Source: Tetrahymena thermophila SB210 | Lineage: Eukaryota > Ciliophora > Oligohymenophorea > Hymenostomatida > Tetrahymenidae | Length of the DNA: 64,000 nt | NCBI RefSeq assembly: GCF_000189635.1 | Contig: NW_002476434.1 | Span: 1,674,001 to 1,738,000 of the forward strand | Reading direction: 5' to 3' | Shown here: positions 6,034 through 43,200 of the stretch, piece after piece | Position numbering within the stretch: the stretch's first letter is position 1 | Layout of the letters: each line of letters starts with the position of its first letter | Made by a program: the position numbers and the translations under genes | The notes under the pieces: generated by a model | Told to the model about the DNA's origin: nothing | Seen by the model: only the letters and a program-made list of their open reading frames with translations | Databases searched by the model: none

Positions 6034-6104
6034 TGCACCGACCGGGAATCGAACCCGGGTCAAAGCGATGGCAACGCTCTATTCTACCACTAAACCATCG
6101 GTGC
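6034..6104 (-). tRNA. tRNA-Gly (anticodon GCC)
   Basis: 71 nt that fold as a complete cloverleaf. The acceptor stem GCACCGA pairs with TCGGTGC, followed by discriminator A. The D arm contains GGTTTAGTGGT, with the A box. The anticodon stem AGCG/CGCT carries loop TTGCCAT with anticodon GCC (6070-6072). The T arm contains GGTTCGATTCC (B box). No intron. CCA is not encoded, as expected in eukaryotes. This is the only locally G+C-rich stretch for several kilobases. Confidence 0.97.
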
Positions 6105-6721: not shown

Positions 6722-11275
<4,554 letters not shown>

Positions 11276-13416: not shown

Positions 13417-14599
13417 CAATATCAAATTTATTCATTCTACATATTTAAAAGAAACAAGAATTAAAAAATAAAGATATTTTGCATAACAGCACATAAAAAT
13501 CAAAAAATAAATAAATAATTGAAAAATAACTTTGTAATTTGAGTTTCTCTAATTAATTTAAGTCAAATTTTAAATGATAAATATTGTTTTAACTTTAACT
13601 GAAAAAAAATGCTTCATATAATTTTTTACAAAGTATTTATTTAAAAATGATATAAGTTGTGTCTAATTCTATATTTAGAAATATCAGATTACTTTCGAAA
13701 TTATTATATTTTTCATGCTGATCAAACTATAAATTTAAACTATCTCTCTTTTACTTTAATAAAATATTTAAATTTAAAAATTAATCAATATATTTTTTTA
13801 ATCAAAAAATAAATGAGAATAAATTATTACAATAAAGCTCTTATTTATTTATATTTTAAAATATTTTTAAATAAAAATTATTGATTTTGATTTTAGTTTA
13901 TTGTTTTTCATAATCAATTACTTTTTTTGATAATAAAATAAACACCTAATTTAAATTTGAAAAAATTAATATCAAAGAATTTATGATTCTGATTTTTTTA
14001 CCAAAGCCTAATAAGCATTCAAAAAAAATTATTTTGGAACAAATTATATTTATTTGCAAATTTATATTTAATCTAATTTAAAATAAAATTTAAAATAATT
14101 ATTTTATGATTTTTCTTTTTTTTTTATAATTAATGTTAAATGTCATTAAAAAATTAAGTGTTTGTTTATTTACAAAGCATAGCTCAATAATTTAGAAAAA
14201 TTTAGATATTTAAATTTTATATTGAATCTGTTAATGATCTATAATATTTTTATGTATATTACTTGAAGAATGTTATTTTTGATAAAATTTTTACAAATTA
14301 TTTTTATTTAATAGAAATTCTATTTGATCTATAACAACGTATATACTGAATTATTTTATACATGATTATTAGAATTTATAGTATATATACTTTTTTTCTC
14401 TGTTTTTAAATATAACTGCTTGAAATTTGTCAAACTTTGATTTTTCTATTTTGGGTTTGTGATCATTAGTTGGCAAAATTTTATCCAATAATTTTTAAAA
14501 CTATAATATGTTATTATAATTATTAATATTATAAACTAATTAAAAAACTGATAGATAAATAAATAAAATAAAATTTTTTAATTCTTAAATTTAAGTTTA
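13417..14599. other. A+T-rich intergenic region
   Basis: About 1.2 kb of extremely A+T-rich DNA with no gene, RNA or clear repeat recognised. It includes the promoter of the gene ending at 11929 and grades into the repeat array beginning near 14600. Confidence 0.4.
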
Positions 14600-15481
14600 G
14601 TCATGTTAAAATTATTTTTTAAATATTTTAAAGTTTAAAATAATTTGTAATTTTTAATTAAAAAATTGTTTTATTCAAAAGTTAAACTAATTTAATTTTT
14701 TACAAATAAATCGCCAGTTATCTAATACCAAATAATTAAAATATTTTTTTTTTATTAAATTTTTTCCTGTAATTGATTGTATAAAATTTGATAATATTAT
14801 TATTTAAATATATATATTTAATAAATATGACTATTTTTTAACTTTAAATCATTAAAAATATATTTATTATCTGATTTTTTTATTTTGAATTAAAAATCTA
14901 ATATTTACTCTTAGCTTTGTAAAGATAAATCATCCGTCCATCCTTCCATCTATCCAAAACACAAATCAAATACTTAATTTTTAAATAAATATATTTTGAA
15001 AAAAAGTTTGTAAACAAATTAATCAAAAAGCAAAATTATTATGATAAGTAAAAAAAAAAAGCAATATAAATATAAATATAAATAAGATTAATACTAGAAT
15101 TATTTTAAAGTTTTTATAAATAATTAAATATTTTGTAATAGCAACTAAATTATTAATATACAAAATATAAGCTTTTCAAAGGAATTTTTAGCATCAAAAA
15201 TAAAAGTAAATTGATGATGTTTTAATTTAACTATATTGAAATTCAAATTAATAAATATTAATTACATGGTATTTTTTAGAAAAATTTAAAAATATGAAAA
15301 ATTATGATTAAGCAGAATTATTGTTTTATTTGAATAAGACTAATAAAAATACGTACATAAAAAAATATATTAATACATGAGCTCAAGAGTTTCCATTTTG
15401 TAAATAGAAGCTTCCTTTTTTAAATGTTAATAATCTTACTGAAACTTGCTTTTTTGAATGTCAATAATAATAATAAAATTT

Positions 15482-15784
15482 TCATTAGTCCTAAATCGAG
15501 TTTTGTTACCTCTCTGCTTCAATTTTAGATTCTGATGCTTAATTTTCAGAAAAATTAGCAAGTTAGTTGCTCTAATCATTATTTTAAGCACCATAAGATT
15601 CGTTTTAGGAATTTTAGTTAGAAATAAGATTCATCTGATTTGTTTTTTGATAATATTAAACCAGCTGTTATTATTCAGCAAAAATCTTGTGTAATTCAGC
15701 CAAAAAAATTCTTAGTCTTACGTTTTCATCTCTAAGGATCCTTTTTTATTCTTAATAAAGTTTATATTCTTGTTGACTACCCAT
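15482..15784 (-). CDS. Small coiled-coil protein, array copy 1
   Basis: A complete 100-aa frame, ATG at 15784 and TGA at 15484-15482, with 18 TAA/TAG glutamines. It is invisible with the standard code. The N-terminus MGSQQEYKLYQEQKRILRDE leads into heptads NVRLRIFLAELHKIFAEQQQ, a short coiled coil, then a Gln/Asn/Ser-rich tail with SYGAQNNDQSN and ENQASESKIEAE that is shared by the other array copies. The start is supported by its conservation in copies 2 and 4 with the same upstream bases (CAATATTTTT-CAAAAATG). The basic-plus-leucine pattern at residues 14-40 vaguely recalls a leucine zipper, but no DNA-binding basic region is convincing. The function is unknown. Transcription is not proven, but the open frame is preserved among diverged copies. 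Confidence 0.65.
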
Positions 15785-16257
15785 TTTTGGAAAAATATTG
15801 TTATTTTTTTGTATCAAATCAATTATTAGTAAAATTTTATAATTAATTATTACTTTGATGATGAGCGATATTCACAATTATAAAATATTGGTTTTTTAAA
15901 TTATTAACAAATTTTATGTGGGTAAATCTCATAATTAAAGAAAGATAATAAAATTTATTGATTCTTATATTTTAGAAGATTAAGCAACTTATTATTACTC
16001 TTAATTAACATAATTTAGTTATTTTTTGAGGAAAATTAATTTACTGTTAAAGGCTTTAACATTTTTCTTCTGTTAACTATCCACTGCAAAAATATTGTGA
16101 GAAAAGGTAAATTTAAAATAGCGATTCTTATTTTTTATTAATAATTTATATTTTTGATTATGTATTATTTAAAATTTACTTTTGATAGTGATTGATAAAT
16201 TTTAAAACTAAAAATTATAAAAAAATCCTTTTAATAAATATTATAAATAGGGAATTA

Positions 16258-16440
16258 ATTAGGGGGAGGTGCTGGGGGGTTTTGTTAACTTTGTCAAAGA
16301 ATTTGTCTTTGATGATTAAAAATTTGTTAAAAAGTTTTTAAAAATGTTGTAAAATATTGCCCTCCAAGTGAAATGCTTGGAGGAAAAAAATTAGGCATGA
16401 TAGGTCTTGGTTTCGATCCTATTAACCTTAAAACACTCCG
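16258..16440. ncRNA. Possible structured RNA or unusual G-rich insert (tentative)
   Basis: A locally G-rich segment inside the A+T-rich array. It contains AGGGGGAGGTGCTGGGGGG near its start and three hairpins: TCAAAGA/TCTTTGA (16294-16312, 7 bp, 5-nt loop), CCTCCAAG/CTTGGAGG (16361-16383, 8 bp, 7-nt loop) and ATAGG/CCTAT (16400-16422). The last lies around GGTTTCGATCC, which resembles a tRNA B box. No complete cloverleaf can be built. The other array units lack this segment. It could be a small RNA gene, a tRNA-derived relic or an inserted element remnant; I cannot decide between these. Confidence 0.25.
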
Positions 16441-17376
16441 ATTGTAAAATTTCTCTTCATTTAAGCTTTTAGCTTAGTTCCATTAATATTTAATTAGATA
16501 ATTTAATTTTGTTTTAAACTATACTCATAAAAATTTAATTAAAAGCATTTTTCTTCCTTTACATATTTTGAGAAAATATTTAGTTTAATAATACAGACCT
16601 TAAGTTAAATCATATTAAAATTATTTTTTAAAGCTTTTGAAGTCATTATTTTTAATTTTTTAATTATAAAATTGTTGTATTTAAAAGTAATACTAATTTC
16701 ATTTTTTACAAATAATTCCCAGTTAATTAATATGAAATCCATCCAATTAAAATATATTCTTTTTTATTATATATTTTTTCTGTAATGGTTTGCTTCTGAA
16801 ATATATATTTTTACTAAAAGCTGCTTATTTTTTAACTTTAAATAATTAAAAATTAATTTATTTATTATCTTATTATTTGTTTTGAATTAGAAATCTAATA
16901 TTTATTCTTCACTTTTTAAAGAAAAAACATCAATCCATTCAAAATACAAATCAAGTACTTAATTTTTAAAAAATATATTTTGAAAAATAGTTTGAAAGCA
17001 AATTAATAGAATAGGAAAATTATGATTAGGAAAAGTAAAAAATATAGCAATAAAAATTAAATTAATATAGAATTCTTTATTTTATTTATTTAATATTTTA
17101 TAATAGTAGATGATGTTTTTATTAAAGAATAATTTTTCAAATTGATAAATAATAATTGCATGGTATTTTTTAGAAAACTTTTAAAAAATGTTTAAAATTT
17201 AGAAAATAGAACTAAAATTTGGCTGGAATAAGATCACGAAAAATATGTATAAACAAAAACAAATACATGAGAGCAAGAGTTTTAATTGTAAATAATAAAT
17301 AAATGATTCCTTTTTGAATGTATATAATTACAATTTTTTTCATTAGTTCTAAATCGAGTTTTGATTCCCCTTAGCT

Positions 17377-17835
17377 TCAATTTTTAGATTTTGATGCTTA
17401 ATTTTCAGAAAAATTAATTACTTGGTTGTTCTAATCACTGTTTTAAGCATCATAAGATTGATTTTGGGAATTTTACTAAGCAATCAAATTACGTAGTTAT
17501 TGGAGTTCTTCTTACATCTTGTCTTTTTCAGCAACGATCTGTTAAATATACTAGTCTTTTTCAACAAAAATCTGTTTTTTTTCAGCAAGAATCTGTTAAT
17601 ATTCAGCAAGAATCTGTTAATATTCAGCAAGATCCCGTTTTTTTTCAGCAAGAATTAGTTCATTAAACTAGTTTTATTCAGCAATAATCTTTTATGTTTG
17701 AGCAATTGTATGTTGTTTTTCAACAAGAAGCTTGCTATATATGTCAAAAGTCTTTAATAGTCTTTAGTTTTCAGCTTTAAAATCTTTTTTTTAAATATTT
17801 TTTTAATATATTTGATCTTCTTGTTTACTTTGCAT
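17377..17835 (-). CDS. Small coiled-coil protein, array copy 2 (longest coil)
   Basis: A complete 152-aa frame from ATG at 17835 to TGA at 17379-17377, read with TAA/TAG as Gln. After MQSKQEDQIYQKN comes an extended coiled coil of about ten heptads, including exact repeats ILAEYQQ ILAEYQQ and variants ILAEKKQ, IFVEKDQ and IVAEKDK. Each heptad is coded by a 21-bp unit (plus-strand core CAGCAAGAATCTGTT), so the coil is a coding minisatellite. The tail SQNQSYDAQNSDQNNQ and ENQASKSK matches copies 1 and 4. Copy 2 stops about 12 residues earlier than copy 1 because one extra A precedes the homologous TTGAAG, a frameshift relative to copy 1 that changes only the last residues. Function unknown; probably a self-associating structural or regulatory protein. 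Confidence 0.65.
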
Positions 17836-18469
17836 TTTTGGAAAATATTGTTAATATTGTTATTTTTTTATTTCAAATCAATTATTTGTATAATTTTACA
17901 TACAATTCCTTGATGATGAGCAAAATTCACTATTATAACGTTATAGTTTTTTAAATTATTAAAAAATTTTAAGAGTATAAACCTCATTATTAAAGTTAAA
18001 TATTGATATTTAATAGAATCTTATGTTGCATAAGTCTAACCAGCTTAATAGTCTTAATTCCCATCATTTAATTATAGATTTGAGGATAATTCACCTTTCT
18101 AATACTGTTCTTCTTTACCCTATCTTGAGCAAAAATATTCTGAGAAAATTTAAAATAGGGATTATTATAGTAGCAAAATTATTAATATAAAAAAAAGAAG
18201 TTAATATAATTTTTAGCATCAAAAATAAAAATAAATAGATGATTTTTTAATTAAAGTATAATTCTTTCAAATTAATAAATAATAATTACATGGTATTTTT
18301 TAGAAAACTTTAAAAAATAGATAAAATAGAACTAATTTTTGATTAGAATAAGATCAATAAAAATATGTACATAAAAAAACATATTAATACATGAGCGCAA
18401 GAGTTTTCATTTTATAAACAATCAATAAATGAAGTTTCGTTTTTTGAATATCAATAATTACAATATTTT

Positions 18470-18720
18470 TATTAGTTCTAAGTCGAGTTTTGATACCCCT
18501 TAGCTTCAATTTTTAGATTCTGATGCTTAATTTTCAGAAAGATTAGCAACTTTGTAGTTCTAATCATTATTTTAAGCACAATAAGATAGATTTCAGGAAT
18601 TTTACTAAGCAACAAAATTACGCAGTATTTGAATTTCTTCTTCTTTTTCAGCAAGAATTTGTTTCATCTACTAGTCTTTTTCAGCAATAATCTTGATTTA
18701 TTCGGGTATAGTCTATTTTT
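18470..18720 (-). pseudogene. Coiled-coil gene, array copy 3 (5'-truncated relic)
   Basis: The minus strand keeps heptads IIAEKDQ, ILAEKEE and IQILRNFVAQQNS, then reaches a TGA (18595-18593) where copies 1, 2 and 4 continue with Gln codons. Beyond it the tail motif ENQASESK is still recognisable. The N-terminal half and start codon seen in copies 1, 2 and 4 are missing; the sequence upstream is unrelated or 5' flank. It is best read as a decayed member of the array. Confidence 0.6.
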
Positions 18721-20093
18721 TTATATCAAATTAATTATTTATAAAATTTTACTGATAATTCATCTTATGATGATTATGATTTGACTTGCAAATGATCCTA
18801 CCTATTTAAATTATTAAAAAATTGTAAGTGTGTAAACCTCATTATTAAAGTTATTTAATGAGTTTAATTAGTATATTAAGCTTCAGAAGACTAATCATCT
18901 TATTAGTCTTAATTCCCATCATTTAGTTATTCTTCTGAGGAGTTTTCATCTTCAGAAACTTTACTAACAATTTTTTAATTGCTATATTGAATTGAATAAA
19001 TGTTTTTATTATTGTTAAAAATAAATTAAAAAAATCTAAATAATCTAAAGTTAAATAATATTCATTTAATACAATTTCTTCTAGTATTAATTTATGCTTT
19101 TAGCTTAGTTCCAGTAATAATTAAATTAGATAAATTAGTTTTGTTTAATACTACACTCATCAAAATTTAACAAAAATCATTTTTTATTTATTAACATATT
19201 TTGAGTAAATATATTATTTAATAATACAGATCTTAAGTTAAAATCATTTTAGAATTATTTTTCAAAGCTTTTTAGTAATAATTTGTATATTTTTAATTAA
19301 AAAATTTTTGTATTTAAAAGTAATACAATTTCATTTTTAACAAATAAATCGCCAGTTAATAAATATGCCCAACCAATATATTTTTTTTATTTTAATTTTA
19401 TTAAATTTCTGTAATGGTTTGATTAAAATTTGATAATTTTACTATTAAAATATATGGATTTACTAAAAACTGCCTATTTTTTAATTTAAATCATTAATAG
19501 TTTATTTATTTATTTTCTTATTTTTTGTTTTGAATTAAAAATCTAATATTTACTCTTAGCTTTTTAAAGGTAAATCATCCATTCATCTATCCAAAACGCA
19601 AATCAAATACTTATTTTAAAAAATAAATTTAGAAAAATAGTTTGTAAGCAAAATTATGATTAGGATAAATAAAAAATATAAATAAGATTAATACTAGAAT
19701 TATTATAAAGTTGTTATATAAATAATTAAATATTTTATAATAGCAACTAAATCATTAATATACAGAATATAAGCCTTTCAAAGGAATTTTTATCATCAAA
19801 ATAATTCTAAATTGATGATGTTTTAATTTAAGTATGATTATATTCAAATTAATAAATAATAATTATATGGTATTATTTAGAATACTTTAAAAGATAATAA
19901 AAATTTAGATTAAGTAGAATTAATGTTTTATTTGAATAAAACCAATAAAAATGCATACATAAAAAAACATATTAATATATGAGTGCAAGAGTTTCAATTT
20001 TGTAAATAATCAATGACTGAAACTTCCTTTTTTAAATGTCAATAATCTAACTGAAACTTGCTTTTTTGAATGTAATTAAAAATAATAATATTT

Positions 20094-20513
20094 TCATTAG
20101 TTTTGTTACTCGTCAGCTTAAATTTTAGATTCTGATGCTTAATTTTCAGAAAGAGCAATTTAGTTGTTCTAATCATTATTTTAAGCACCACAAGATTAGT
20201 TTTAGGAATTTTAGTTAGTAATAAGATTAACCGTATTTGTTATTTGTTCATGTTAAGCTTGGTATTCTTCTTCTTCTTTATTCTTTATTTCAGCAATATT
20301 CTTGTTATTTTTAGCAATTGTCTGTTAAACTTCAGCATTAAACTGTAAAAATTCAGCAGCAAATCATTAATTTTTTTCATCAGCAATCTGTTAACATTTG
20401 AAATATTAAGCAATAATCTTTTATTATTCAGCAATAATCTTTCTTAGTATTTCGTTTTCAGCTCTAAGGGTCATTTATTATTAATAAAGTTGGTATTCTT
20501 GTTGACTTTGCAT
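20094..20513 (-). pseudogene. Coiled-coil gene, array copy 4 (in-frame TGA)
   Basis: A 140-codon frame from ATG at 20513 to a terminal TGA at 20096-20094, colinear with copies 1 and 2. It starts MQSQQEYQLYQQQMTLRAEN, has heptads KIIAEQQ and KIIAQYF, and ends with ENQASESKIQADE. Codon 50 is TGA, the only true stop in this code, in the middle of the coil; the frame is otherwise intact on both sides. A truncated 49-residue product, stop-codon readthrough or a pseudogene are possible. I favour recent inactivation, because the rest of the frame has not decayed. Confidence 0.6.
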
Positions 20514-21539
20514 TTTTGAAAAAATATTGTTATTTTTTTTATATCAAATAAATTATTTGTAAAATTTTATAATTAATTATTCTAATAATAAGAGAAATTC
20601 ACAATTATAATATCTTTGCTTTTTAAATTATTAATAAATTTAAATTGGGTAAACCCCTTTATTATAGTTAGATCATGACATTTAGTGATTCTTGTATTTA
20701 AGAAGATTAAGCACCTTATTATTACACTTAATTCCTACCATTTAGTTATTTTTTGAAGAAAACTAATTCATTTATTGATCCTTTATATTTTAGATCATTA
20801 ATTATTAATTATTTATTTTGGGTAGTGATTGATCTAAATATTTAGAAATTAAAATATTTTTTTAATGATATTATTAAATTTTTTTCTGTTATGGTTTGTA
20901 TAAAATTTGATCATTTTACTATTAAAATATATGTATTTACTAATAAATGCCTATTTTTTAACGTTAAATCATTAAAATTTATTTATTTATAATCTTATTT
21001 TTTGTTTTGAATAAGAAATCTAATATTTACTCTAATATTTTTAAAGATAAGTAATTCATAAATCAATCCAAAATTCAAATCAAATACTTAATTTTAAAAA
21101 AATAAATTTTGAAAAATATTTCGAAAGAAAATTTATAGAAAAGCAAAATTATGATAAAGATATGTAAAAAATAAAACAATATTAATATCAATAAAATTAA
21201 TACTAGAATTTTTCAAAGTTATAATAAATAATTAAATATTTTATAATCACAATTAAATTATTAATGTACAAAAAAGAAGACTTTCAAAGGAATTTTTAGC
21301 ATCAAAAATAAAGTAAATTGATGAAGTTTTAATTAAAGTATATTTATATTCAAATTAATAAATAATAATTACATTTTATTTTAAAGAAAACTTTAAAAGA
21401 TATTAAAAATTTAGATAAAGTAGAATTATTGTTTGAATCGAATAAGATCATTAAAAATAGGTACATACAAAAACATATTAATACTTTAGCTCAATAACTG
21501 AAGCTTCCTTTTTTGAATGTCAATAGTCATAATATTTAC

Positions 21540-21600
21540 ATTAGTTCTAAATCGAGTTTTGATACCCTTTAGCTTCAATTTTAAGATTCTGTCTATAGAA
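21540..21600 (-). pseudogene. Coiled-coil gene, array copy 5 (3' stub)
   Basis: Only the last 50-60 bases of block B survive. They match the 3' end of copies 1 and 2 (minus strand AATTGAAGCTAAAGGG and AACTCGATTTAGAACTAATG). The coil and start are deleted, joining this stub to unrelated sequence. The matching block A (21673-21825) is still present upstream. Confidence 0.55.
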
Positions 21601-21672
21601 TTTTTTGAAGTAAATTCATCTAAATAGGATCCTGGCTTTTTAAATAATTAAAATACTTTAAGAATATAAAGC

Positions 21673-21825
21673 TCATTATAAAGTTACATTTTAGCATTTA
21701 ATAGATTCTTATATTTCAGTAGGCTAAGCACCTTATTATTAGTCTTAATTCCCATCACTTAGTTATTCTTTTGAGGATAATTCAACTATAGAGGTTATAA
21801 AATTGTTCTTCTGTTCACTACTCAT
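21673..21825 (-). other. Block A of array unit 5 (short 50-codon frame)
   Basis: ATG at 21825 opens a 50-codon frame ending with TGA at 21675-21673. The core ELSSKEQLSDGNQDQQQG is recognisable in the same frame in the other four units (about 20.73, 18.93, 18.07 and 16.02 kb; unit 3 reads EEQLNDGNQDQQDDQSSE). The ATG is not conserved in the other units, so block A may be a 5' exon of the coiled-coil gene or a conserved leader rather than its own gene. Units 2 and 3 carry a donor-like AG|GTTTA after block A that would join in phase to an AAAG acceptor just inside block B in unit 2. Its nature is unresolved. Confidence 0.35.
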
Positions 21826-21960
21826 GAGCAATTATATTCTAAGAAAAGATAAAATAGGTATTTTTATTTTTTATTGATAATTTATTTTTTGATTATTTAT
21901 TATTTATTATTGAATTTAGACAGTGATCGATTAATTTTAAATCTAAATATTTTTGAAAAA

Positions 21961-22662
21961 ATTCTTTCAATAAATATTATTAATCAAAATTTAAAAGATA
22001 CACTAAAATTAAGTAAATTCTTGCTTTACCTTTTTAGCTAAGCTAAGTAGAAATAACAAAGTTTAAAAAATAATTAAATTCGATTATATTAAAATAGTAA
22101 CTCTATCCCAGAATTTTGGAAGAAAAAAAAAATCATCACCAAGGCCATTATTCAAAACTCTCAAAAGTTTAAAAAAATATTAAATTTTCTATTTGAACAC
22201 TTTTTATAATATACATTTATTTAATGTTTTCAATTTATGAATTATGTTGATTAGTAAATTTACTTACTTATTTATAAAAACTTTTTTCATTTTAAATTAA
22301 ACCTAATATAGGTATCAAATATAATGCTATCCAGTTCATATATTTTATGAGGATTACAAATATTTTTAAAAAAATCTATAATAAATTTGAATATTTATTT
22401 ATTAAATATTTAACTAGTTGATGTAAGATAAGGTTACAGAAAAATAATAAATAAAATAATATATATAATAAAAATTATAATTTTAAAATTAAATAATAGT
22501 ATGAAGGTATTTAAATTTATAATTGACTTAATAAATTAAATTAACTTGCTAAACTAATTAGCTACTTTTCTTAAATATTAATCTTTTTAAGTCAAAAAAC
22601 TTTAATCATTTTAATTAGTAAATTTCAAAATGGAAACTATAAAGAAATTAAAATCTAGTGAC
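21961..22662. other. Intergenic region
   Basis: A+T-rich spacer between the repeat array and the 3' end of the phosphatase-like gene. No gene or structured element recognised. Confidence 0.45.
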
Positions 22663-23847
22663 TCAATTGCCTTAATTTTAAGATTCTTCTTGATCGTATG
22701 ACTTGTAAATAAAGGAGCAATTATTAATAGCTTTGTGTTTTTCCTTAAAACATTTTCGAATAAGTGTATCTATAAAGTATCCATGAGAAATAACACAAAC
22801 CATTGATTGTTTTTATTTTTGCAGACTTTATTCTTTTAATTTTAATGAATACCTCTTTATGCATTTATTTGTATGCAAAACTCTTCTTACGAAGTTAAAA
22901 TGATTTTCTAAAGGCTAGTTTTTGTGATACTCCATTAAATTCATAATAGTGGTTGTATCAGCCATATGTCTCTATATTTTATTGAATTATTATTATACTT
23001 CTTCTTCGCCATTAATTTCTTAATCACTATCTGATGAAGATGATGCAGGCATTTTTAAAAGTTATTCATCAATAATGTTTGCCTGCCAATTATGCTAGTA
23101 GAAATACCTGCAATTAAAGGATATTCCATCTTTCTAATAACTAGTTTTAATGAAATCAATGAACTTATTTGAGTCAAATATATCAGAGACTTTTGTTAGC
23201 TGTTCTGAAATTTATGGCTAAACAATAAATTGTATTTTTCTTTTGTTTGGATGGTTCCTAAATAATTCTACGCAAGTTTATAAAGTCCTTTGCATCGGCG
23301 AAACATATACAGTTTATATTCTCAATTTATGAAGCTGAGGAGCTTTATTTTTACACTATATTATTCCATAAGGATGTAAAGGTGTATCTACAAATTCTTA
23401 AGAGTTGCTAAACATTTTATCCTTAATTAATTATTTTAATTTCTTGCTATTAATAGTTTATGAATTTATGTATTTGTCAACGAAATAGTTGTGAAAAGAG
23501 TAAGCATGTCTTATAAAAATAACATTCCCATCATCGCTAGTGAACTAATCATATGGATTTAAACTAATACCCAGCTGTTACACTTCACTTTCATCAAAAA
23601 CAAAATTTTTATGTAATTCCCTAATTTTTAGCTCGCTAGGAGTATTTTGGTATAATAATGATTATGTAAGCAAAAATCTAAGCTATTCTTCATTTATTTA
23701 ATCCTCTTCACTTAGCTCTTGCTAGTTCTTTTCCTCTTAAATGCTTTTATTATTTTATTTTATTTGATCCTGTGAAAATTTATAGAATGGCTAGCTACTT
23801 AGCGTTTTAGAATTTAAAATAAATCTTTTGGCTAACTTTGATATCAT
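22663..23847 (-). CDS. Histidine phosphatase superfamily protein (phosphoglycerate-mutase-like)
   Basis: A single-exon reading of 394 aa, ATG at 23847 and TGA at 22665-22663. Family hallmarks are present: the first catalytic motif VIFIRHAYS near residue 110 (RHG type with Ala for Gly, holding the phospho-accepting His and its Arg), the core motif VYVSPMQRTLQTCVELF near residue 200, and the second catalytic His in VCVISHGYFIDTL near residue 354. A Ser/Asp/Glu-rich insert (SSSSDSDQEINGEEE) lies between the latter two. These enzymes dephosphorylate small molecules or proteins; the substrate here is unknown. The frame stays open upstream, and a 62-nt intron at 23937-23998 would join in phase to protein-like sequence up to about 24110, so the real N-terminus may be longer. 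It starts close to the 3' end of the large cysteine-rich gene on the same strand. Confidence 0.8.
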
Positions 23848-24374: not shown

Positions 24375-27300
24375 TCAGTCTTCTGTAAGAGACCTAGAAT
24401 TTTGTTGCTAAACTTAATTTTGTTTTTGCTTCACCTTATAAGAGTGAATTTTAATATTTGAGTTACTTAAACTCCAAATATTAATTGTCTTTTCTTAAGC
24501 TACTTCTAACAAAAGCTATCCATTCTTTTTTTCTTGCTATTTTTTAAGCTTTCTCTGTAAAAGTTTTTATTATATTTTCTTTAAAAAATCAAAAGTGCTG
24601 ATTAAGAAGCGTATAAAAAAAAGAATTAAACTTAATGCTAAACATCCAATAAGCATGAAAAATAGTATAAAGCTAAGCTTTTCTAATTTTTTAAGTTCAT
24701 CATTTTCTATTATTGATTTTTGCATCATGTTGATCCAATTATTGCAAGTTACAGCTAAAACTATAAATGTTACTCCCACAAAAAATTCTTAAAATATTTT
24801 GTAATATGTAATAACTTTATACTTGAAGAATCTATAAAAAAGAATGTAAAAGCCATGCAAAAAGAATGCAGCAGAAATAATAGATGAGCACATTACAGGA
24901 TTAGAAAATGTGGTCAGGAATATAATTATCACAAAATATTTCTTCATATAGCTAACTAAAATATAAGATTTACTTCCTTTCGCCTAAAAATTTATATTTT
25001 CAAGAAAATTTGGTATATTGAGCTCAATATATTTGTTGTCTTTTTTGAACATCACAAATGCCATTAATATCATAAAAAATAAATGTATAAATGCTTGAAA
25101 TATAGCTAATCCCCTAGAGTTTTAAAATTGCATAGAAAAATAAATACTGAAAATCGTAGCAGTTAGGTATCCTTGATTTAAGTTAGACATAACGTTTAGA
25201 AGTGTATTTACTATCAATATTGTGTATTGCTTTCCTTTCATAATAGCTCTTGCAAATAAATTTAAAAATATTAAAACTGAAGAAATTACAAGCGATAAAT
25301 GTGCAAATATGAAATTAGAATATAAATTTTATTTCAGCCCAAGTTGATGAAGATATTTTGTTTGGTGAGAGTATTTGTTTTCACTATTATCTTTCTTATC
25401 TTCTTAGTTTTCTGATTAACTTTCAATGGTATAACTTAATTCTTAATTTGAAGGTATATCTTAAAAGATAAAAGAAGCTCCTAAGAGGGAATAAGTAAAT
25501 ATTTAAGGAGGAATACTTTCCTTTAATATAACGATTGGTCCCAAAACTTGAATAAAATTAGATAAAATGCAAAGTATTTAAAAATTTTTTAAGACCAGCA
25601 TAACATTTTTTGTTGAAGGATCTTCTGGCACGAATGTTTGAGACATATTGCTTATTGACTCATCTCTTTCTTATGAAGATTTATTATTTTTGTTATATTC
25701 TTCAGTTGTTAGAACTGTATTTAAGAGTTTTAACAAATTAACTTTTTTATTGAGAGTTATTTATATTTCGTTTATTTTTCTGTTCTAATTTACAGATATT
25801 TCAAAGTAAATTTTATTATTAACGATTTTTTTATCTTTTATAAAATAATCCTAGTCCACTTTCATGGTTTTTGGGTCTATTAAGATAGCTAAATCTTCTA
25901 GCTCATCAGAAAATGGGTCTCTATTAAGAATTATTGTTAATAAATTACTATCATTTTAAACTGACAACTAAACAGATACTATTTTTAATATGGGAACACA
26001 TGTTTTCTCTTTAATTCTAATTACATAGCCAGGTTTGCATTTGCACTAGGGATAAGGACCAGAATCATCTTCTTACAAACCTTCTCCATCACCACATTTC
26101 TCTATACATCTTCCTTACCAGCTGTAAAATTACTTTTAGCATATCTAACATGAAGATTAATCAAGGCATGTTTTACAATTTCTATTGCATTAAACACATA
26201 CTTTTTATTTGTTGCAAAAATATCCATCAACCATGTCTTTTGAGCAGAAAATAAGTTTTGTTTAATTTTATTTTAAATCTATTTCTTACTAGATATTAAA
26301 ATAATCTGAGCTCTAAGCACATTCGCACTACTGGCTAATATTATTAAACTTCAAATTATTTCCTAAATCTTTACAATCAGATATGCAAGCATTAAGCTCG
26401 CTCTGCAACAAATAACCATTTTTGCATCTAATGCACTTAGCTTTTAATTAATACTATCCACTTACTGAATCTTTTTCGCAATTATTTTTATGATCTTAAC
26501 AATTATCAACTAACTTAAACTTATCTTCGTTCGGACATCTTACACAGCTTCTATCTTTGTCTAGAATATAATAACCATCAAAACACGTTAAACATTAATT
26601 TTTTTGAGAACCATCACAAGTTAAACATTCTGAATTACATTTAGAACATTTTGTCCCTTCTATGAAATACCCTTCATTAATATCACATTTTTCACAAATT
26701 TATTAACCTGCTTTATTTATTTTCAAACTTAATCCTTATTGACATTAGGTACATTCACTAATGTCTGGTCCTGTGCATTACTAGCAATTAATAGCACAAG
26801 GAAGGCATTACTTATTATCCATATCTACATAAAACCCATTATTAGTATCACATTTCACACATTCACCTTTTAAATTTTTAGTTAAATCCCCAAAGCATTC
26901 TAAGCAATCGGTTTCATTAGGACCAGAGCATGTTTAGCATTTAGGATTACATTTTAAACATTACCCATTATTTATATATTTTCTATCTTAAATATCACAA
27001 AAATTACAGATTTTTGTATTTCCATCAAAGTAAAAACCAGAGGCACAGCTAGTGCATCCATTTAGATCACAGCCATTACATTTATCATCACACTTTAAAC
27101 AGTTTAAATTATCTTTTCTATAATTTCCTGAGCAATTTCCACATGTACCATCTGAATATTTATATAAACCATTCTTTATATCACAAGTTAAGCAATTGTT
27201 TGTGAGAGGACCATCACATGTTAAGCAGCTTGGGTTGCATTTTTTACAAAATTAATCTCCATTGTCTACATAATTATTTTGAAGGCAAGTATCACATTTT

Positions 27301-30300
27301 ACATCAACACCGTTTGCTTATAAAATAAGGTATGTATTTTTAACACATTTTTTACAAATTGTTTTGTTATCACAAACTTAACAATTTGCATCACACTTTT
27401 CACATTTATAAACTGTGTCATAATATGAAAAATATCCATTATTTAAATCGCAACTAGTTAAACATTATTATTTTTCATCAATATATATTGGACTAGAATT
27501 ATTAACTTTGCAAACCTAGCAGGTAGATTCATTGTCACATACACTACAATTTTCAATGCATTCTTTGCAATTCCCTAAACTGTCTTTGAAGTACCCGTCT
27601 CCACAAATAATACATTTTTTCTTACCATCTTATAATGTTAATAAATTAAATCCATCAAAGCAAGTTTCACATTCAGTATCTAATTCTCCTGAGCAGGTTT
27701 AGCATGATGTATCACATCTTTTGCAAATCTTATCATCTGATATATAATAAGAATTACTGGTTGTAGGACAGGAAATGCACTAAGTTAGAGCTTCATCTCT
27801 TACTAAAGAACTTATACATTCCTCACATTTTAAAGTAGATGCTTATAATGAACATTTTTAGCAGTTAGAAGGACATTTTAAACATTCTGAAGAGTTTTTA
27901 TAATATCCATTTTCAATACATTATGTACAACTATTATCATCCTTTTTTAGAAATTTACCATTTAGACAACTTAAACACTGATTAGGATCTGAAGGACTTT
28001 TACAAGTCTTACAGGAAGGATCACAAGGTAAGCAATCACCACCCATTTATATATATTAATCTAAGCTTGAACATTCAACACATGTCTTCTATCCAGATTT
28101 GTTAGTTAAGAAACTATAAGACTCTACACACTTTAAACAACTAAACTCATCAATATCAGAGCACATTTCACAGCTTGCATGACAATTTTTACACTCCTTA
28201 TTCAAAAGTACTTATTTATCAGGGCATGGTTAAGGACAGGATTTATCTTATAATTAAATACTTGGTGGACAACTCAAACAATTATTTTGGCTAAGTCCAT
28301 CACATGTTAGACATGTTTTATCGCATTTTTTACAAGATTTAGAAACATCATCCCCAAAATATCCCACTGGACAAGTCTAACAGAGAGAGTCATTAAATAT
28401 ATACTTTCCAGTAGGACAAGTTTCACATTTCGTTAACTATTTACAAGTTGAGCATGAAGGATCGCAAGGTTAACAAACATTATTTGAAGGAAAAGTTTTA
28501 TCAGGACAATTTTCTACACACATGTTTTATGAATTTAAATTTAAAGACCCTGTACAGCTTAAACAATTATTATCATTACTCCCATTACAAGTTTTACAGC
28601 TACTATGGCATTACAGACAAAGATTGTTACTTTTATAAAATCCATCTTCATTACATTAGACACAAGTATTTTATTTTAGATACATATTACTTTAGCAGGC
28701 TGTACAAAAGTTAGCATTTCCTTAACACTACAAGCAATTATTATTACAGTTTTAGCAGAGTTGATTTGAATCTAAAAATTAAGAATTGTTTGTTTTACAT
28801 ACTTAACATATTTTATCTGTACCTTACTAAAAGAAATATAAACCATCAACGCAAGTTTTACAGGAAGTATTTTTATCATCAGAGCAAGTCTTGCATGTGG
28901 GATGGCAATTATAGCAATCAGATAAATTTGCATATTAGCCTGAGCTTATATTACATTATACACATTTAAATTTTGATCCATCTGTTGGGTTCATTCTTAA
29001 GAATGAAGATTTACAGCTTGTACAAGAATTTTCCGCGCCATCAATGCAGGTCAAACAGGTAGCAAAGCATGGTTAACAGCGATTAGTCTTGGTATCAATA
29101 TAATAGCCATTTTATGTTTAGCATTCATTACATGTATTATCAGGATAAAGAAATTTATTTGCAGGGCAACTAAGGCAACTATTTTTAGCAGAATTAGAAC
29201 AAGTTTAACAAGAGGGATCACATGGAAGACACTTCTTTTGATTTTTATCTTGATAATATTAAGTATCTGTGCACTGAGAACAAGTTCCATCAATTTTCAA
29301 ATATAAATTTGTTCCACATGATAGGCAATTATTTGAGTTATCTCCATTACACGATTTACATTAATTATTACATGGTTTGCATATACCAGAGGAATTAATA
29401 TAATATCCATTATTTGTATCACATGTTTAACATGTTTTATCATCTCTTAAATATTTATCTTAATAGCAAGATATGCAATTATTTGATTTAGATCCTTAGC
29501 ATGTTTTACAAGAAGAATCACATTTTTAGCATTTTTTTGAACTATCTAAAAAGTACCCATTTTCAGTGTCGCACCTAATGCACTAATTATTTTAAAGAGT
29601 TGAGTCAGATCTACAACTTTTACAGTTTTTACTTGATGAATCACAAGTTAAACATGAAGAGTCACAAGCAGTGCAAATCTTTTTGGATGATACAAAAAAA
29701 CCATTTTTAGTATCACAAATAACGCATTAATTTTATTAGTCAAGAACTTTAGAATCTTTGCATTTAGTGCAAGATGTACTAGATCCTTAACAATCTTCAC
29801 AATTTTTATCACATTTACTACACTTAAAATTATCAAGGTAGTATCCTTCATCACAATCTTTACATTTATTACTATTATTGTCTTAACAATCATTGCAATT
29901 GCTTACATAACAGTTAAGAATTCTAAATTATTATTTTTTCTAAATTTAGTATTAATTTTTTAAATAATTTTCTGGTGTTTTTGGGCAATCAAGTGACTCC
30001 TAAACTAAAGTAAATTAGAAAGAAGTCGGAAAATCATGCGATTAATTTTTATTTATCAAGGAATTATAAATTCTGATATTTTTAAAAAATAAAAAATTAG
30101 TTTATTAGTAAAATATCTTCATTTTTAAAAATTTGATTATCATAAAAGAATTAAATAAAATGTTCATTTACTTTATGTACTGATAAAAATTTTATTTTAA
30201 GACCTTTTCTTTGAGAGAGAATTTAAATTTTATTTGAATCCATCTTTAATTATTCAAATAATTAGGGCAATTTAGTATCTTAATTTGATAACTGTTATTA

Positions 30301-30745
30301 TTTTTCATTTATTCTACAGTATTTATCTTACTTTGAAAAGAGCCAACTAAATAATCAATTTCTCTTTTTAAAAAATAAATGTGCTTATATTTTTGATTCG
30401 CTATTAAAAATATTTACATTTGATTCTAAATATATGGATCAAGCTCAACAACCACCATTTGTACATTATCTAATGCATCATCTAGCTCAATTTTAATCAT
30501 AAAAGCATTACTTTCTAAATCAATATCTAGCTGATACGAAGTTATGACTTTATTTTCCATGTCTGATTTAATATTTTTTTCATCTGATTAAAGCTCGAAA
30601 TAATTTTTAGCACATGTACATGTTTAAATAAATCCAATCAAAAGACAAATAAATCCTTTTGAAGTAAATAATTATATTATATATTTTTATAGACATAGAA
30701 TTATTTAAAAAAATTACTTATAATTTAAAATTTATTTGTAATCAT
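24375..30745 (-). CDS. Giant cysteine-rich multi-pass membrane protein (furin/GFR-type repeats), paralogue 1
   Basis: Two exons give 2102 aa: a 28-nt first exon (ATG at 30745), an intron at 30656-30717, then one open frame to TGA at 24377-24375. Splicing creates a signal peptide MITNKFQIIRFICLLIGF followed by IQTCTCA. Residues about 26-250 form a non-repetitive ectodomain. Residues about 255-1555 are dozens of Cys-rich modules of the type CxxCxxxCxxC (for example CKTCQGSKSNNC, CLTCDG), like furin/growth-factor-receptor repeats. Residues 1556-1690 form a linker with NRDPFSDELEDLAILIDP. Residues about 1690-2030 contain seven or so hydrophobic spans, for example FILFFMLIGCLALSLILFF. The cytoplasmic tail is Lys/Gln-rich and ends SRSLTED. 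Similar huge proteins are numerous in ciliates. A surface sensory or adhesion role is plausible but not shown. A paralogue lies at 37257-43875 in the same orientation. Confidence 0.9.
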
Positions 30746-37256: not shown

Positions 37257-40200
37257 TCAATTATGTGTATCTTAAAAAGATACTAGATTCACTTATTTTG
37301 TATGTTAAAGTTCTACATATTTTTATTATTTGATATATTTTATTGTAGGAAATTTATTTTTTTGATTGGTTTGGAAAATTTCTTATAACATTTATTCATT
37401 TTATAAGCTTAATAATGAGCTATTTGATCTCTTTTTAAAGAAGGCTTTAATTTATCTGAAAACTTAAAGTAGGGATATAAATAAACGGATCAAAAAAAGA
37501 ATCAAGCTTATCCCTAGACAAGCCAAAAGCATAAATAATATTATAACACTTTATTTCTCTATACTGCTTAGATCTTCATTACTTATCGTTGTACTTCCCA
37601 TAATTTCAGTGTATTTCTTGCTAGTGATTGAAATCATAACAAAAGTTATTCCAACGCTAAACTCTTAGAACACTTTATAATAGGAAATGAAAGAATATTA
37701 AAAAAATCTATAGTAAAGAATATAGATGCCTTATAAAAAAAAGGTTATAGATATAATTATGCATGATGTTACAACATTTTTTGAAAGGGTTAGAAAAATT
37801 AGAACCACAAAATATTTTTTAGCATAGCTTATTAGTATGTATGATTTACTGCCTTTTGCTTTGAAGTTTATGTTAACTAAAAAATTAGGAATGTGATTTT
37901 CGATATATTCATTATCTTTTTTGAACAAGATATAGGTGATTTCAATAAAAAAGAACAAATGAATAAAAGCTTAAAAGACAGCTAATCCTCTGCTTTCGCT
38001 AAATTATAGAGAAAAATATATACTGAATATTGTAGGTGTAATATATCCTTAATTGAGATTTGACATAACATTAAGAAGAATATTTACTATTTGCATAGTG
38101 TATTATTTACCCTTCATTATAGCTCTAGCAAACAAATTTAAAAACACTAATACTGTGCATAAAACAAGAGATAAGTGTGGAAATAAAAAGTTTGAGTACA
38201 AAAACTTTTACAATCCAAACTGAGTTAGAATTTTTAATTAATCAGAATCATATTATTCAGATTAGTTGTCATTATTTGATTAGTTTGTAGTAGATTCTGA
38301 ACTTATTTAGCAATTGACTTCTTGGAAGGAAGGAATAGCTTCAAATATAAAAGAATCACCGAGTAAGGAGTAGGTGTATATCGATTATGGTATATTGTCT
38401 TTGAACATAGCTATAGGTCCTAAGACCTATAAAAAGTGAGAAAGAATAATTAAGATTTAAAAATCTTTGAAAATAGAAATAACTTTCTATGCTGAACCAC
38501 TATCAGGAACAAGTATTTAGGAAGCATCATTAATATTTTAATTTCTTTGCTAGGAAGATTGGTTGCTTTTATTAAACTCTTCTGTTGTGAGAATTGTGTT
38601 ACTAAGCGATAAAGTATTTATTTGTTTATTAAGTGTTACTTAAATTGTATTGATTTTTCTGTTCTAAGTAACTTAAATCTCATAATAAATTTTGTTATCA
38701 ATAATACTCATGCTTTTTATAAAATAGTCTTAGCTCAACTTCATTGTTTATGGATCTATTAGAAGTTTTAGGTCCTAAGACTCATCATTAAAGGGAGCTC
38801 TATTTAAAGTTATTGTTAGTAAATTGTTGTCATTTTATATTGTCAGTTTCAAAGAAATAATTTAGAGCTTTAAAACACAGATCTTATCTTATTCCCTCAA
38901 GACGTATCCTTATTTACAGATACATAAGTTTGAAGGAGTCAAAGAATTATCACTATTAACTATCAAACCTTGACTATCTTCACACTTTTAAATGCATTAG
39001 CCTTGCCACAAATAATACTAGCTTTCACATTAGCTACAAGAGAAACGACTTTAACACACTTTACAATTGCTGTTGCATTAATAGCACTTCTTATTTTAAT
39101 TACAAAAATATCCATCGATAGGTTATTAGGAACAAAAAATTGATTATATTTGTTAATTAGCTTTATTAGGAATATTATAATAATACATCTAAGATTAGCA
39201 TTCACATTATTTTGTAACTGTATTAAAGACAAGATTTTCTCCAATGTCATTACAGCCAGATATGCATGCATTAGGATCTTCCTATAATATGTAATCTTAT
39301 TTACATTTATTACACTTCTGTAGTAAAACATAATTCCCAGAACGTATACTTTACTAACAAACAATCTCATATTATTCACAATTTTATGAGTACCTTCCTC
39401 GAATGATATTATTTTAGTCTTCTGTAGGACATTATACACAGCTTTTATTACTTCCTATGATGAAATATCCAGTAAAGCATGTTAAACACTCACTTGATGA
39501 AGTTCCATTACAAGTTTTACAGCTTGAGTCGCATTTAAGGCATTTATTTATACTAATAAAATATCCATTCTAAATATTGCATTCTTAACATACTTAATTT
39601 CCTGCATTATCGTTACTTAAATAAAGATCTTTTGCACACTGAGTGCATTCGCCTATACTTGGACCAGTGCATTTTTTACAATTTTGAGCACATGGAAGGC
39701 ATCTCTAATTAATACTATCAATATAAAAACCATTATCAACATTGCAAACAACACATTAATTGTTTATATCTCTAGTTAATTATCCATTACAGAGTATACA
39801 ATCTGATTCACTAGGTCCTGAACATGTTTTACATTTTGAATTGCAACTTATACATGTTAAACTATTCTAAATAAACTTGCCATTTTAAATGTCACAAGTA
39901 TTGCATTGTTTAGAACCTTCAACAAAATAAAAACCAGAAGCACAACTTTTGCAGCCAGTAGAATCACATCCGTTACATTTCGGATCACATTATACACAAT
40001 TTTATCCTACAATCTTAAAATTTCCTGTGCAAGTGCTACAAGAATTATCAGGCTATTTATAGAGATTTTATGATTAGTCACATGTTAAACAGTCAGTGCT
40101 TAGAGGACCTGAGCAAGTTAAGCAACTTGAATCACATTTTTTGCAAAACTAATCCTATGGATCAATATAATTATTTTAATTACATACTCCACATTTAACA

Positions 40201-43200
40201 TCAACATTATTTGTTTGCAAAATAAGAGAGGTATTGTTCATACATTTTTTACACAAATTTTTGCTTTGGCATTATTAGCAATCAGTATCACATTTTAAAC
40301 ATTTTAAAACTCCATCATTCTAAATAAAGTATCCTCCATTTTAGTCACAACTACTTACACATTGTTTGTTTTCATCTAAGTAAATAGGTTGAGAATTACT
40401 TGTATTACAAACTTAACAAGTACTTTAATCATTGCATTATCTACAATTTTAGATACAGGCTGAACATTTACCAGGGGAATTAATAAAATAACCATCTCCG
40501 CATACAATACATCTTTTTTCTGAAATTAACAAATTCATTCCATTAAAACAAGATTAACAATCAGTATCTTTTCCTCCTATACAAGTTTTGCAAGAACTAT
40601 CACATTTTTTACAGATTTTATCATCTGGAGAGTAGTAAAATGAGATGTCACCAGAGCATAATACACATTGAGTAAGGGTTTAATCTCTAATATAAGGATT
40701 TGAGCATAAGTCACAAATTAAATTAGATCCTTAAACACTACATTTATCGCAATTAATAGGACATTTTAAACATAAAGAAGAACTCTTATAATAGCCACGT
40801 TTAGTGCAATCAGAACAGCTTTAATCATCTTTCTGAAAAAACTTACCAATTGGGCAGCTTAAACATTTATTAGGGTCATTTTGACGATTGCAAGTCAAAC
40901 AAGTTGGATGACAAGGTAAGCAATCATTTCCCTATTTAAAATAATAACTTTACTGGGAGCAATCTACACACTTTTTCTTTCCACCTTTATCTTGCAAGAA
41001 AGCATAGTTAGAATTACTGCAGCTGATACAACTATATTCATCAACATCAAAGCATGAATTACAAGAAATATCACATTGTAGGCATTAATTATTCTTCTAA
41101 ATATATTTGCTAGGACACTAAGATGTGCAAGTTCCTGACTATAAGGTTATATCACCTGGACAAGACAAACAGTTTGAACTACTAGGTCCATTGCATGTTA
41201 AACAAGAAGAATCACATGGTTTACAGCTTTTACTAGCATTGTCTCCATAATAATTAGAAGGACATGTTTAACATAAAGCATCATTAAAAATATATTATCC
41301 ATCAGGACAGGTGCTGCATTTTCCAGCTTAAGAGCATGTAGCACATGAAGGATCACAAGCTTAGCAGACATTACTTAATGCGAAAGTTCCCTCCGGACAT
41401 TAATCTACACATTAATTAATTGAATTTAAATTTAAAGATCCACTGCAAGATAAGCAATTATTTTATTTATCTCCGTTGCATGTTTTACAAGAACTATCGC
41501 ATTTTAGACAAAAAGATCCATTTATATAAAATCCATCCCCACAAGATCCACAAGTATTGTCTAGTTTCTTAAGGTATTACCCATCCTAGCAATCAGTGCA
41601 AGTATTAGCATTACCTTAACATTTTAAACATTGGCTACTACAATTTTAGCAAAAAAAATTTGAATCAACAAACTATTAACCATTAATTTGGCAGCTCTAA
41701 CATAATTTATCCATTCCTGATTAGACAAAATACAAACCATCAGCACAGGTTGTACATGATTTATTATTTCCATCTGTGCAAGTTTTACAAGAAGAATGGC
41801 AATTGAAACAATCTGTTTGGGTTCCACCTGATGAAGTAGTATATTAACCTAATGAAGTATTGCATTAAATACATTTAAAGTTTGTTCCAGAATATGGATT
41901 CATTCTCAAATATGAGGGTTTACAAGCAGTACAAGAGCTTTATCCAGCATCTACACAAGCTTAACATGTGGAAAAACATTTTTAACAACGAGGGATGCTC
42001 GGATTAGTTTTGGTATCTATATAATATCCATTTGAAGTTTAGCAGTCTTAACAAGAGTTATCAGGATATAGATATTTTCCTGAAGGACAGCTAAGACAGC
42101 TATTGCTATTTGAGTTAGAACAAGTTAAGCAAGATGGATCACAAGGAAGGCATTTCATTTAAGTTTAATCTTTAAAATATTTAGAATCAGTACAGTCAGA
42201 GCATGTGCCATCATTTTTTAAATAATTGTTAGGGTAACAAGAGAGGCAGTTGTTTGAGTTATCTCCATTACATTTTTTACAACTAGAATTGCACTATTTA
42301 CATATACTAGAGCTTGTTAAATAGTATCCGTTTTAAACATCACATGCTTAACAAGTATTGTCTGTTCTTAAATAGGTATTTAATTGACAAGTAATGCAAT
42401 TATTTTTATTAGATCCATTACATGTTTTGCAACTAGGGTCACATTTAGTACATTAGCCATTATTTAAATAATTACCATTAGTAGTATCGCATGTTATGCA
42501 CTGTTTATTTGATAAAATAAAATTTGTTTTACAGCTATTACAGTCTGTTTTGTTAGGTCCACTGCATGTTAGACACGAGGCATCACAAGGATTACAAATA
42601 TTTTAAGGCGAAACAAAATATCCATTATTTTAATCACAATTTACACATTGAGATGACAAATTTAAAATTTGAGGGCTCTTGCAAGAAATACAAGTAGTGC
42701 TTTAAGCCTAGCAAGTTAAGCAATTATTATCACATTTTAAACACTTTCCATCACTAATATAATAACCCTAAGCAGTATTGCAAGTTTAGCATGAACCATC
42801 TTAAGCAAGGAATAAATTTTATTTGCAAGAAGTACAATCTTATTTAGATCCTCCTTAACATTCCTAACAAGATTGATCGCATTATTAGCAGCTATATGTT
42901 TGGGAACGCCTACCTCTTGACTATTAATTATCATTATAAAAGCCTGATTAACATGAAGTGCATTCCTTCCATCTTTAACAGTTGCAACCATTAGGACATT
43001 AATTATTTCCTCCCCAGTTTCCTCCTCCACCATTTCCACCCCACTATCCTCCTCCTCCATACCCATTAAGGATTCTTGTTTATTTAAGCTTAGGATAGAA
43101 GATAATGTTATTTTTTTAATGAAGTTCTTCAAGTTAATATTCTTATTAATAATAATCATAAGAATTTCCGCATTATTATTAAATTTCAGTATTAGTTGAT

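Follow-up and report, generated by a model that had tools for sequence, protein, structure and literature searches.

A stretch of A+T-rich DNA in the genome of the ciliate Tetrahymena thermophila SB210 is likely to be a tandem array of small protein-coding genes from one family, together with their pseudogenes. The stretch (14000-22600; ~16-22% G+C) lies in the window analyzed here, a 64,000-nucleotide segment of contig NW_002476434.1 (positions 1,674,001 to 1,738,000, forward strand), whose coordinates are used throughout. This degree of confidence applies to the reading as a whole; whether the window's own copies are still alive is weighed separately below. Telomerase exon blocks in this genome are identical to the solved chain 6d6v, which is the T. 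thermophila telomerase. Because the DNA is from T. thermophila, TAA and TAG were read as glutamine and TGA as the only stop codon. A blastn comparison of the array with itself and with four other loci resolved five related units whose matching pieces are 70-82% alike, which agrees with the approximately five diverged units of the original prediction, made from the sequence alone. That prediction also assigned a small minus-strand frame to each unit. Two such frames, W15 and W17 (copies in the window are named with W, copies elsewhere with L), are exactly as described. They run from ATG to TGA, need 14 and 17 TAA/TAG codons as glutamine, and share a start context, an M(G/Q)S(K/Q)QE head, and a SENQAS tail. 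The other three of the five units are broken. The W20 frame of unit 4 is closed, and units 3 and 5 are relics; unit 3 (W18) has lost its head and carries an in-frame TGA in its tail.

What distinguishes these frames from chance? Open length alone is weak evidence, because the window holds 97 ATG frames of at least 150 amino acids under this code. The same count speaks for a very improbable alternative, namely that the array is non-coding repeat DNA and that its frames owe their openness to TGA being the sole stop in A+T-rich DNA. One observation against this alternative is a 3-base periodicity of length variants that is present inside the frame, but not outside of it. Distances between conserved anchors were measured in alignments blind to codons, and a variant was called in phase with reference to the commonest length. 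Across all 11 ATG-bearing copies, in-phase length variants numbered 17 of 26 inside the frame, versus 7 of 47 outside (Fisher p=1.8e-5), and p ranged from 1.4e-5 to 1.1e-4 across four anchor settings. When the three frameshifted copies of group A (defined below) were removed, the figures became 17/19 and 6/39, a contrast favored by the selection of copies known to be open, which affects the all-copy figure less. With the main repeat interval excluded in a hand count, 11/18 variants inside and 7/47 outside were in phase (p=4e-4). Seven of the nine off-phase variants inside the frame belong to the three frameshifted copies, and the other two are tail deletions of L010b and L011b. The copies are related, hence the length variants are partly non-independent. 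Within the window, the in-frame length differences between W15 and W20 are all in phase; the pairwise aligner breaks the largest of these gaps into pieces that are out of phase but together add up to a multiple of 3.

Two further features also argue against non-coding repeat DNA. Counted over eight copies (W20 plus the seven that are open), the frame contains one TGA in 1064 codons; the remaining same-strand frames contain 11 and 83, and those of the opposite strand 9, 28, and 2. Furthermore, G+C content peaks at codon position 1 in 8/8 copies (0.36-0.49 versus 0.14-0.30 at positions 2 and 3). Thus, length-variant phase, scarcity of TGA, and codon-position composition all exceed chance, and the non-coding alternative is disfavored. 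On these features the family is taken to be protein-coding, at least historically. Hidden frames in seemingly empty ciliate DNA can be separated from chance by these three features, even where the ratio of nonsynonymous to synonymous substitution rates (dN/dS) is of little help.

The family is not just a local cluster, because four further places in this genome also carry it. DNA and protein searches covered the whole genome (101 Mb, 445 contigs), and their match counts are lower bounds. Strong matches were found at C91, C50, C138, and C130. A 500-bp core detects at least 14 units: five in the window, two at C91, three at C50 (one of them inverted), two at C138, and two at C130. Further matches are weak and short, except for a lone 75-bp stretch outside the five array places (G000:C39:456480-456554) that is 92% identical to part of unit 5. 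The array at C138 lies less than 10 kb from a contig end, and those at C91, C50, and C130 lie farther in.

The ATG end is kept in 11 of the 14 units; W18, W21, and L009a are headless. Seven of the 11 are open (100-165 amino acids) and begin in a common ATG context: W15 (100 amino acids), W17 (152), L009b (165), L010b (121), L011b (161), L012a (119), and L012b (108). The remaining four are broken, W20 by one TGA and L010a, L010i, and L011a by frameshifts. In 8/11 copies with a start, one minus-strand frame has been retained over nearly its full length despite many length changes. The end past the SENQAS-SK motif varies because one A has been gained or is missing. Distinct deletions near the tail, of 11 and 17 bases, remove SENQAS from L010b and L011b and leave the remainder open.

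A tree based on the tail together with the 3' flank puts window unit 2 and four other units in group A, and window unit 3 and three others in group B (support 91/91). The remaining groupings are W15 with W20 and the pair at C130; W21 is unplaced. The seven open copies are distributed over all five loci and all four tree groups. An A-B order recurs at four places (window, C50, C138, and C91). Family members are descendants of a common ancestor, and an A-B gene pair is repeated at four places. The gene cluster of the original prediction is supported as one small gene family by indel phase, TGA deficit, and codon-position G+C, and the family extends beyond the local array. A ~1.9-kb duplicated segment, 88% identical, links the window (21737-23663) to C91 (1250274-1252218; L009). 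It runs from unit 5 into a histidine phosphatase-like gene that adjoins both arrays.

Alternatively, each unit could be a transposable-element copy, with the small frame as a passenger or a nucleic-acid-binding protein. The 14 units at five places with one inverted at C50, and a dispersed repeat within the array (placed in unit 2), fit such an element. This alternative is nonetheless highly unlikely. Strong matches occur at just five places in 101 Mb, each with at least two units, and the 88% match to C91 continues into the neighboring phosphatase gene in the manner of a segmental duplication. The seven open proteins gave no Pfam match to a transposase or reverse transcriptase, in a scan limited to these proteins.

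What would the genes encode? AlphaFold2, run without an alignment on W17, the only protein folded, predicted one helix spanning residues 2-150 with a mean predicted local distance difference test (pLDDT) score of 90.7. Long charged helices are often predicted in this manner. A hydrophobic rhythm of 3.5 residues was significant (p<0.05) in W17, L009b, and L010b, three of the six proteins tested (L012b was left out). The coil of the original prediction corresponds to a strong helix prediction for one protein, W17, and to a significant heptad rhythm in half of the proteins tested, W15 not among them. Residues M1, Q5, E22, A77, L117, I118, and Q124 (W17 numbering) are invariant in the seven aligned open proteins. 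As anticipated, no described family matched: the two window proteins had no Pfam match at E 0.001, and at E 0.1 the seven open proteins matched three stray families with one member each. A PDB profile match to RPRD1B (E=0.0054) was read as a chance coil match. The family was not recognized in any publication found in the open-licence literature, which was searched by text and not by sequence. The products appear to be small helical, probably coiled-coil proteins, with function inferred only.

Several observations weigh against a family of coding genes. Pairwise counts of frame-shifting indels were not significant in 14/17 pairs under each of two gap settings. Fewer such indels in the frame than expected from the flanks (P<0.05) were found for W17-L009b, W17-L012a, and W17-L010i under the first setting and for W15-L009b, W17-L009b, and W17-L012a under the second. 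This count is not relied on because pairwise global alignments split gaps; a global alignment of all 14 units with long flanks was too gappy and was left unused. The two TGAs in the third opposite-strand frame mean that the TGA count alone cannot single out the coding frame. The heptad rhythm is not significant in W15, L011b, and L012a, and W17's four fellow members of group A are all frameshifted or headless.

The pattern of divergence points the same way. In 17/18 pairs (all except L012a-L012b), conservation is higher in the 3' flank than in the frame, as the non-coding alternative would have it. Relative to the frame, the 5' flank shows more divergence in 12 of the 18 pairs (four of the 12 on 15 bases), equal divergence in one, and less in five; the 18 pairs are not independent. 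The heavy divergence of the flanks described in the original prediction is therefore partly borne out for the 5' flank, and not for the 3' flank. For example, W15 and W20 differ by 0.161 in the frame, 0.158 in the 5' flank, and 0.142 in the 3' flank. W17 differs from L010a, L010i, and L011a by 0.106-0.119, 0.099-0.139, and 0.065-0.079, respectively. Among W18, L010b, and L011b the values are 0.149-0.239 for the frame versus 0.093-0.117 for the 3' flank. The cause may be constraint or conversion of the 3' flank, or rapid change of the frame. In a 14-copy alignment, the most conserved part of the unit is in the 3' flank, ~170-290 bases past the SENQAS-SK codon (about 17093-17213 in unit 2), where the mean difference is 0.14-0.17 versus 0.22-0.33 in three in-frame windows.

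Substitution rates add to these doubts. Pooled dN/dS, calculated from non-independent pairs with W21 and the L012a-L012b pair left out, was 1.47 for the head (12 copies) and 1.17 for the tail (13 copies). Values about 1 or above also speak for the non-coding alternative. In the same head and tail comparison, codon position 1 was the most variable, and the +1 frame scored lower ratios (0.69 and 0.56). A codon model under this code, applied to 86 aligned codons, gave a rate ratio (omega) of 1.58 for eight copies (twice the log-likelihood difference, 2dlnL, 4.2-4.3 versus omega=1) and 1.50-1.52 for all 12 copies (2dlnL 5.0-5.4). For four group-A copies, omega was 0.76-0.82, not different from 1. 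Because omega ranges from ~0.8 to 1.58, there is no overall purifying selection on residues. The original prediction had named dN/dS near 1, together with an absence of transcripts in every life stage, as a sign against it; on the dN/dS side, ratios of 0.76-0.82 in the W17 group and 1.58 in the eight copies were indeed found, yet the frame is kept.

How can a kept frame be reconciled with such loose residues? One possibility is that all window copies are dead, that is, the family once coded and the two open frames are young pseudogenes yet unhit. This possibility overlaps with the favored reading and differs from it solely on whether the window copies still work. The lack of overall purifying selection, the broken state of three window units, and the loss of frame or head in W17's group are in its favor. 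On the other side are the purely in-phase differences between W15 and W20 with W15 open, and the spread of open copies over five loci and all four tree groups. In addition, tail dN/dS in group A is low (0.19-0.36 in 6/6 pairs among W17, L010a, L010i, and L011a), on few changes. On balance, the death of all window copies is possible but rather unlikely. Another possibility is that the family is under diversifying selection, with residues changing faster than neutral, the frame and layout held, and coil length tuned by whole residues, often seven. The evidence for it is weak, being open to inflation by alignment error, and we regard it as doubtful at best. If true, diversifying selection would fit a partner-matching or conflict system (self recognition, or interaction with prey or parasites) inside one ciliate species.

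The gene-family reading suggests the following model. Intact copies would encode helical proteins of 100-165 residues with a short conserved head, a heptad-repeat middle, and a Q/N-rich tail. The middle would probably pair as a coiled coil, with itself or with a partner, and its length may be altered partly through gain or loss of 7-residue blocks. Duplication, which is evident for single units and for A-B pairs, and decay, which is evident in some copies, would together renew the set by birth and death. The demands on residues would be loose. Since residue identity is barely constrained, function would rest on helix layout or on difference from sister copies; involvement in recognition or conflict is a guess. 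The family allows coil blocks and entire genes to be traced, copy by copy, as they are gained and lost.

Table 1. Features of the array in window coordinates.
Feature	Position	Strand	Basis
Repeat unit 1 (groups with unit 4)	14591..16248	-	blastn of array on itself and four other loci; tree
Open frame W15, 100 amino acids, ATG to TGA, 14 TAA/TAG as glutamine	15482..15784	-	frame scan, TGA counts, codon-position composition
Dispersed ~142-bp repeat inside array, outside frames	16315..16456	+	genome-wide matches
Repeat unit 2 (group A)	16575..18168	-	blastn, tree
Open frame W17, 152 amino acids, ATG to TGA, 17 TAA/TAG as glutamine; one long predicted helix	17377..17835	-	frame scan, structure prediction, TGA counts
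21-bp (7-residue) internal tandem repeat in W17 coil, 4.7 copies	17557..17655	-	Tandem Repeats Finder
Repeat unit 3 (group B), headless relic, in-frame TGA; tail part about 18509-18727	18167..18972	-	blastn, frame comparison
Repeat unit 4 (groups with unit 1)	19087..20768	-	blastn, tree
Frame W20, full length, closed by single TGA at 20364-20366	20094..20513	-	frame comparison
Repeat unit 5, relic: mostly 3' flank, frame lost	20847..21984	-	blastn, 500-bp core search

The ~142-bp repeat has at least 41 matches genome-wide, one of which is the repeat itself and another of which matches only past it. Its copies are 72-91% alike and have a common 3' end. The sequence folds better than shuffled versions (z -3.97 on the plus strand and -2.48 on the minus strand). 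A 17-row alignment gave no consensus pairs, and a trimmed 14-row alignment gave five pairs, one with both sides changed. A structured RNA is not claimed because there is little covariation among the copies. Rfam gave no match to the repeat at the gathering score, ARAGORN called no tRNA in it, and it was not recognized in a text search of the open-licence literature on dispersed repeats. The sole Rfam result for the whole window is a tRNA-Gly (gcc) at 6034-6104 on the minus strand; sub-threshold matches to SNORD79 and PK-BYV in the array were taken as chance. Large neighboring frames match Pfam models of protein kinase, TPR, histidine phosphatase, and VSP. These include a kinase/TPR frame (933-2939), a kinase frame (7315-9921), and very large cysteine-rich VSP-like frames (24375-30560 and 37257-42158). 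Two of the neighboring frames have additional matches to growth-factor-receptor or furin-like models that fall below the curated cut-off.

How does the family compare with known systems? Membership in the 90-bp-exon leucine-rich-repeat (LRR) genes is ruled out, as the internal repeat has a 21-bp period and the seven open proteins have no Pfam LRR match. Synaptonemal-complex coiled-coil proteins (PMC8598163) show strong sequence divergence with retained secondary-structure features. Compared by description only, the array family resembles them in diverging sequence and kept secondary structure, and differs in that its length varies widely (100-165 amino acids). In arrangement and rate, the family is like the species-specific genes of Tetrahymena described by Xiong et al. 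2019 (PMC6564038), which occur as tandem duplicates, evolve fast, and for the most part show little or no expression. The domains listed there include kinase, TPR, and growth-factor-receptor cysteine-rich domains, and median Ka/Ks (the same ratio as dN/dS) is given as 0.25 and 0.30 for categories I and II. Like these genes, the family forms tandem inparalogues (2-5 units at each of five loci), has a raised ratio (omega 0.76-0.82 in group A and 1.58 in eight copies), and has neighbors of the kinase and TPR kinds along with the cysteine-rich VSP-like frames with weak growth-factor-receptor matches. Unlike the genes described there, the array proteins have no known domain, and omega of ~0.8-1.6, obtained by other comparisons and another method, lies above those medians. 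Thus, the family fits a known kind of Tetrahymena species-specific tandem genes in arrangement and rate, and adds to these fast-evolving genes a family without a recognized domain.

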